Assembly: GCA_902569615.1 (NCBI GenBank) | Contig: CACFUX010000004.1 | Coordinates: 1 to 54,636 of the forward strand | DNA length: 54,636 nt | DNA from: an uncultured Pelagibacteraceae bacterium | Lineage (GTDB): Bacteria; Pseudomonadota; Alphaproteobacteria; Pelagibacterales; Pelagibacteraceae | Direction of reading: 5' to 3' | In this document: positions 44,224 through 44,561 of the stretch, piece after piece | Position numbering within the stretch: position 1 is the stretch's first letter | Layout: every line of letters begins with the position of its first letter | Program-made: the position numbers and the translations under genes | Notes under the pieces: generated by a model | What the model was told of the DNA's origin: nothing | Database searches by the model: none | What the model saw: the letters and a program-made list of their open reading frames with translations, nothing else

Positions 44224-44283
44224 AAAATCAATATAGACAATTAAATTTTTAAATGATAAGAACACTTTTTTTTGGAGGTAGTT

Positions 44284-44478
44284 ATTAAAATAGAAGTAAA
44301 AGACAATAATATAGAGCAAGCACTAAGAGTGCTAAAAAGAAAACTTCAACGTGACGGTTTTTTTAAAATAATAAAATTAAAGAATACTTATGAAAAACCA
44401 TCAGAAAAAAAGAAAAGAATTCTTCAAGAAAATATTAAAAGAGTAAAAAAGTTAAACAAAATTAAAAATAGATATTAA
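44284..44478 (+). CDS. rpsU: 30S ribosomal protein S21 (ATT start proposed; alternative TTG start at 44272)
   Basis: VKDNNIEQALRVLKRKLQRDGFFKIIKLKNTYEKPSEKKKR; GGAGG at 44274-44278, 5 nt before ATT. Confidence 0.9.
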   Translation: MKIEVKDNNIEQALRVLKRKLQRDGFFKIIKLKNTYEKPSEKKKRILQENIKRVKKLNKIKNRY

Positions 44479-44484
44479 ATTTAC

Positions 44485-44561
44485 CGCGGGGTGGAGCAGC
44501 CTGGTAGCTCGCAAGGCTCATAACCTTGAGGTCGGCGGTTCAAATCCGTCCCCCGCAACCA
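44485..44561 (+). tRNA. initiator tRNA-fMet (CAT)
   Basis: cgcggggtggagcagcctggtagctcgcaagg-ctcataa-ccttg..ccccgcaacca; C1:A72 mismatch typical of initiator tRNA. Confidence 0.96.

Follow-up and report, generated by a model that had tools for sequence, protein, structure and literature searches.

A probable AUU start codon behind a strong Shine-Dalgarno sequence in the rpsU genes of Pelagibacteraceae

We analysed the rpsU locus of an uncultured Pelagibacteraceae bacterium on a low-GC contig (contig CACFUX010000004.1 of assembly GCA_902569615.1; "the window" is the whole stretch of 54,636 nucleotides that was analysed), the source genome of which (G000) is 73% complete. By gene content and composition it is close to the marine SAR11/Pelagibacter group, bacteria that are abundant in the sea. 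The gene encodes ribosomal protein bS21 and is followed by an initiator tRNA gene, and a Shine-Dalgarno sequence (SD) and a promoter-like element lie ahead of it (Table 1). The S21 protein was searched for in the genus, family, order and class, and the leaders were then inspected directly; the relatives include several complete or near-complete genomes, such as G012, of which 800 kb was read.

Table 1. Features at the rpsU locus, in positions of the window
Feature	Position	Strand	Remarks
-35-like element TAGACA	44234..44239	+	TRGAC[AT] in 144 of 144 leaders and in the sister family; second position never T
Proposed 11-codon uORF, rejected as a functional part	44253..44288	+	Frame and stop unconserved across genera; start overlaps the promoter-like element
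Extended -10-like element TG-A-TAAGAA	44254..44262	+	TGNTA invariant; gap from the -35-like element 14 nt in 142 of 144 leaders, 15 nt in two
Predicted transcription start (±2 nt)	44269	+	Inferred from the position of the -10
In-frame TTG, rejected as start	44272..44274	+	In relatives missing, out of frame or separated by a stop
Shine-Dalgarno GGAGG, 5 nt before AUU	44274..44278	+	Kept in non-ATG leaders (two GGGGG, one GGAGA); lost in 17 of 17 ATG leaders; about -12 kcal/mol
AUU start codon (probable)	44284..44286	+	ATT in 121 of 144 distinct family leaders; replaced only by ATG, ACG and ATC; upstream in-frame stops in some genera
rpsU CDS (bS21), 64 codons and stop, read from AUU	44284..44478	+	S21 homology from residue 1; the ORF list has the identical stop, opened at TTG
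Initiator tRNA-fMet	44485..44561	+	6 nt after the rpsU stop; C1:A72 mismatch; anticodon-stem pairs A-U/G-C/G-C

The only conventional codon in frame upstream of the ATT is a TTG, the G of which is the first base of the GGAGG. The earlier note had described this arrangement, with the GGAGG five bases ahead of the ATT, and its coordinates and strings proved correct in the window. The S21 frame can indeed be aligned at residue 1 with other alphaproteobacterial S21 proteins, and the proposal made in that note, initiation at AUU behind a strong SD, gained support from the relatives, as the pair of ATT and GGAGG recurs in 11 other sampled genera and in most of the window's own genus (g1), more than chance would give. 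Residue 1 is encoded by ATT in 121 of the 144 distinct Pelagibacteraceae rpsU leaders, by ATG in 17, by ACG in five and by ATC in one. ATT is the sole codon at this position in the 11 other genera (g2-g10, g12 and g13); ATG, ACG and ATC are found besides ATT in g1. Where ATG is present, it occupies exactly the position of the ATT codon. The preceding codon is variable across the family (GTT, TTT, ATT, CTT, AAT, TAT or GCT), and for this lack of conservation at codon -1 GTT was rejected as a start. In 34 of 122 ATT leaders no in-frame ATG, GTG or TTG lies between the ATT and the nearest stop upstream, and in nine of the 122 an in-frame stop lies two codons upstream of the ATT. Conservation at residue 1, variability at codon -1 and the absence or cutting off of conventional starts upstream argue that the AUU at 44284 is almost certainly the start of rpsU.

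It is highly improbable that translation begins instead at the TTG (giving MEVVIK...) or at codon 3, ATA. The window and most members of the genus do have the TTG in frame, and codon 3 (44290-44292) is ATA in 134 of 145 loci. The TTG, however, overlaps the SD, and in relatives it is replaced by CTG (L029), lies out of frame (L056) or is cut off by an in-frame stop (g9 and g12). Codon 3 varies (ATT, ATC and GTA are its other forms) and is never ATG, whereas codon 1 can be. A drifting ATT and SD beside a conserved TTG, set beforehand as the pattern that would speak against an AUU start, was looked for in the relatives, and the reverse was seen. Gene finders restricted to ATG, GTG and TTG will place rpsU starts wrongly or overlook them in SAR11 and several further lineages of Alphaproteobacteria. 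The internal isoleucine codons of the same rpsU genes are ATT in 292 cases versus ATA in 242, despite the ATA-rich codon 3.

We found that the type of start codon goes together with the strength of the SD. All 127 non-ATG leaders carry a strong or near-strong SD (GGAGG, save for two GGGGG and one GGAGA), and neither GGAG nor GAGG occurs in any of the 17 ATG leaders; the spacing from GGAGG to the start is 4-9 nt across the family. Median predicted pairing with the 16S tail is -12.2 kcal/mol for ATT, -12.0 for ACG, -11.6 for ATA (in the sister family) and -0.3 for ATG. In a tree built from the upstream gene, the ATG loci form two separate groups, one of ten loci inside ATT lineages and one mixed with ACG. 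This gives two independent contrasts with branch support in which ATG goes with SD loss, and four if the best tree is taken; all point the same way, and they are too few for a significance test. The leaders of the two ATG groups are similar, so recombination may have spread a single ATG/no-SD leader event between them. Comparison thus indicates that start strength is paired with SD strength, a relation that rests on few evolutionary contrasts.

A strong SD is unusual in these genomes. As had been noted from the window, most starts there have little or no SD: a 5-mer SD precedes 3 of 53 window genes and GGAGG none of the 53, and control positions gave the same rate. In the 800 kb of the complete relative G012, GGAGG is found in 11 of 841 genes; rpsU pairing is -11.9 kcal/mol, and 7 of 841 other genes reach this value. 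Within the str/S10 cluster, translation genes range from about +1 to -7.3 kcal/mol, except tuf (-10.6), and rpsR has no GGAGG in the 15 genomes inspected. The pairing energies and GGAGG counts of G012 support the view that S21 is an SD outlier within an SD-poor genome. The 16S tail retains CCUCC in the nine genomes where the pattern was found. SDs are rare yet used in this lineage, and among the ribosomal protein genes examined rpsU stands out. The 3' tail of 16S reads GGATTACCTCC in g1, g5 and g9 and GGATCACCTCC in g2 and g3.

Further upstream, T[AG]GAC[AT]-N14-TGNTA precedes rpsU in 142 of 144 family leaders, with N15 in the remaining two, and the same T[AG]GAC[AT]/TGNTA element was present in 11 of 11 sister-family leaders read. 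With 17 nt between the hexamers, it is spaced like a -35 and an extended -10. The -35-like element is TAGACA or TGGACA and never TTGACA, the second position being T in 0 of 144 leaders. The base before the TG of the -10-like element is A in 52% and G in 48% (ATG versus GTG), and the distance from the TG to the start codon is 27-40 nt. If the usual distance from -10 to +1 applies, the rpsU leader would be about 15 nt long and would start nearly at the SD. We rejected a generic genome-wide promoter motif, as TRGACW-N14-TGNTA has only two matches in 800 kb of G012, one of them presumably that at rpsU. A structured leader RNA was also rejected: no Rfam family matches at the rpsU leader, the Rfam matches in the window being only 5S rRNA and two tRNAs. 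In the papers searched on known candidate RNAs and ribosomal leaders, rpsU and S21 are absent from the main texts. A dyad, AAARTG...CAYTTT, lies around the -10 (window 44250-44268; g1 leaders) and pairs better within than between loci overall, most strongly in g1. Outside the window's genus it mostly has 2-3 pairs, and it overlaps the promoter-like element; it is possibly a DNA operator.

The 11-codon uORF had been put forward as coupled to initiation at AUU. Its string from ATG to TAA is present in the window, and within the genus an 11-codon frame ending at the ATT is common. Its frame relative to the ATT and its length are not, however, kept between genera, and the leaders show 21 different combinations of start, length and stop. 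In addition, the ATG of the uORF coincides with the TG of the extended -10 element, and the predicted transcription start lies downstream of it. Coupling of AUU initiation through termination-reinitiation is thus very unlikely. Of the leader conservation that the earlier note had suggested checking, GGAGG and ATT are kept in most leaders, but the uORF frame is not.

Downstream of rpsU, the C1:A72 mismatch and the A-U/G-C/G-C pairs (instead of three G-C pairs) were seen in 20 of 20 copies of the tRNA read. In most Pelagibacteraceae genera a tRNA-fMet gene is next to rpsU or close to it; none was found beside the gene in g5, g7, the sister family f2 or the other alphaproteobacteria scanned. bS21 and the initiator tRNA are likely co-transcribed.

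Avoidance of AUG extends beyond the family. The rpsU genes of the sister family have GGAGG-N8-ATA. Of 80 other alphaproteobacterial rpsU genes, 33 have GTG at residue 1, 11 have TTG and nine have ATG; 15 of the 80 lack any ATG, GTG or TTG over ten codons or as far as the first in-frame stop, and in all 15 ATC, ATA, ATT or CTG stands at or just before residue 1. A further 80 loci, which include many named organisms and are weighted towards close relatives of the query, gave GTG in 72, CTG just before residue 1 in six (for example, Rhodospira trueperi), and TTG and ATG in one each. As a control, rpsR of 30 alphaproteobacteria begins with ATG in 24 by an automatic rule, and most of the other six show an ATG just upstream of the scanned region. 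The start of rpsU in E. coli is ATG. Because ATG is rare at residue 1 in the two sets of 80 loci while rpsR is essentially all ATG, avoidance of AUG is, as read from these sequences, a feature of alphaproteobacterial rpsU, and the AUU of SAR11 is its extreme form. We found no report of AUG avoidance by rpsU in full-text literature (searched mostly outside subscription journals), and no experiment on SAR11 rpsU in the literature. In Pelagibacter phages, the S21 gene of HTVC008M starts with ATG without an SD and that of Mosig has AAAGGAGGTAAT before a TTG start (L189 and L190).

A weak non-AUG start behind a strong SD, together with the avoidance of AUG by related bacteria, suggests that S21 output is restrained on purpose, or regulated, as translation begins. 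We propose that rpsU is translated from AUU by initiator tRNA with the help of a strong SD at optimal spacing, the strong SD compensating for the weak codon. Selection keeping the weak start would make bS21 synthesis dependent on pairing between the SD and the anti-SD, and also on the strictness, set mainly by IF3, of the 30S subunit against non-AUG codons; a switch to AUG would be tolerated only with simultaneous loss of the SD. That selection acts for a weak start together with a strong SD is very probable. Discrimination of the IF3 type is a reasonable candidate for the physical basis, favoured over its absence by a modest degree, and the purpose would presumably be to limit or regulate bS21. 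As a whole, the best explanation is an SD-dependent weak start that selection maintains and that acts as a translational governor of bS21; it is somewhat better than an even bet. Negative feedback through the bS21 status of the 30S subunit is a more doubtful addition to it. bS21 lies next to the anti-SD, is bound loosely and can be exchanged (PMC10931766, PMC9578407). An autoregulatory circuit for rpsU that senses start codon and anti-SD, as first raised from the window sequence, would fit the sequence pattern and is plausible.

A constitutively low rate without regulation would leave identical sequences. The weak start may set a fixed ratio of bS21 to ribosomes or to tRNA, with a strong promoter shared with the downstream initiator tRNA and no sensing, which we regard as possible but the less probable case. 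That the tRNA gene follows rpsU after 6 nt in the window, and is close to it in most genera of the family, is consistent with such tuning, and gain of AUG with loss of the SD would hold output constant. Co-transcription with the tRNA, however, cannot explain the avoidance of AUG elsewhere, because AUG is avoided also where no tRNA adjoins rpsU, as in g5, g7, the sister family and the alphaproteobacterial loci scanned. A feedback like that of Bacteroidia, in which 30S subunits lacking bS21 expose the anti-SD and prefer rpsU, and AUU leaves SD pairing as the only driver, is slightly less probable still. It would fit an SD-poor genome with one of its strongest SDs at rpsU and with CCUCC retained, and it has experimental support in Flavobacterium, where ribosomes without bS21 translate rpsU better (PMC9976891). 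Against it, Tyr54, the C-terminal tyrosine specific to bS21 of Bacteroidia that redirects the 16S tail, has no counterpart here: residues 3-49 of the window bS21 match residues 4-51 of chain 7jil_z, by extrapolation Tyr54 would correspond to about Lys52, and the stretch between residues 37 and 63 lacks Tyr. Strong SDs also occur at several unrelated genes of SAR11, so SDs are not ignored, and bS21 of E. coli is reported to help SD pairing (PMC10931766), which would give the feedback the opposite sign. Across the class, rpsU may avoid AUG as part of a homeostatic circuit that senses the initiation state of 30S (IF3 stringency, bS21 occupancy near the anti-SD, or both), the AUU, AUA and ACG of SAR11 being most extreme and AUG lineages having lost weak start and SD together; we consider this wider idea speculative and rather unlikely.

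The translational governor proposed here has several relatives among known systems. Autoregulation of rpsU in Flavobacterium through an extended SD (PMC9976891) concerns the same gene, with a strong SD in an SD-poor genome and CCUCC retained, but in SAR11 the start is AUU, AUA or ACG, the tyrosine of Bacteroidia bS21 is lacking and other genes also have SDs. The GTC start of Streptomyces sigR is repressed by IF3, and a canonical start leads to overproduction of the protein (PMC5472188). It is a conserved near-cognate start like that of SAR11 rpsU, although sigR encodes a sigma factor rather than a ribosomal protein, and the effect is demonstrated there. Gammaproteobacterial rpsT (bS20), with its UUG or GUG start (PMC10931766), is likewise a small-subunit protein gene with a lineage-wide weak start and a suspected control role; it uses only UUG or GUG, whereas alphaproteobacterial rpsT uses AUG, so the two cases are complementary. 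That rpsU refuses AUG across the class suggests that the dose of bS21 is controlled at initiation also beyond the sole lineage where this has been shown. The loci also provide a natural set of variants for testing, with ATT, ACG, ATC, ATA, CTG, GTG, and ATG with and without an SD.

The gene for IF3, infC, starts with AUU, and IF3 discriminates against non-AUG codons such as AUU. SAR11 rpsU resembles it as another gene of the initiation apparatus in which a good SD precedes AUU (ATT in 121 of 144 leaders and ATC in one, with ATA in the sister family), but its product is bS21, not IF3, and the infC gene of the window's genus has a GTG start. Among the infC loci read (L193-L207), those of g1-g4 start at a GTG that immediately follows a stop codon. 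No conventional start of infC was seen in g5, g12 and the sister family, where ATT or ATA follows an SD-like sequence. The classic infC start has undergone a lineage-specific switch, with GTG in g1-g4 versus ATT or ATA in g5, g12 and the sister family.
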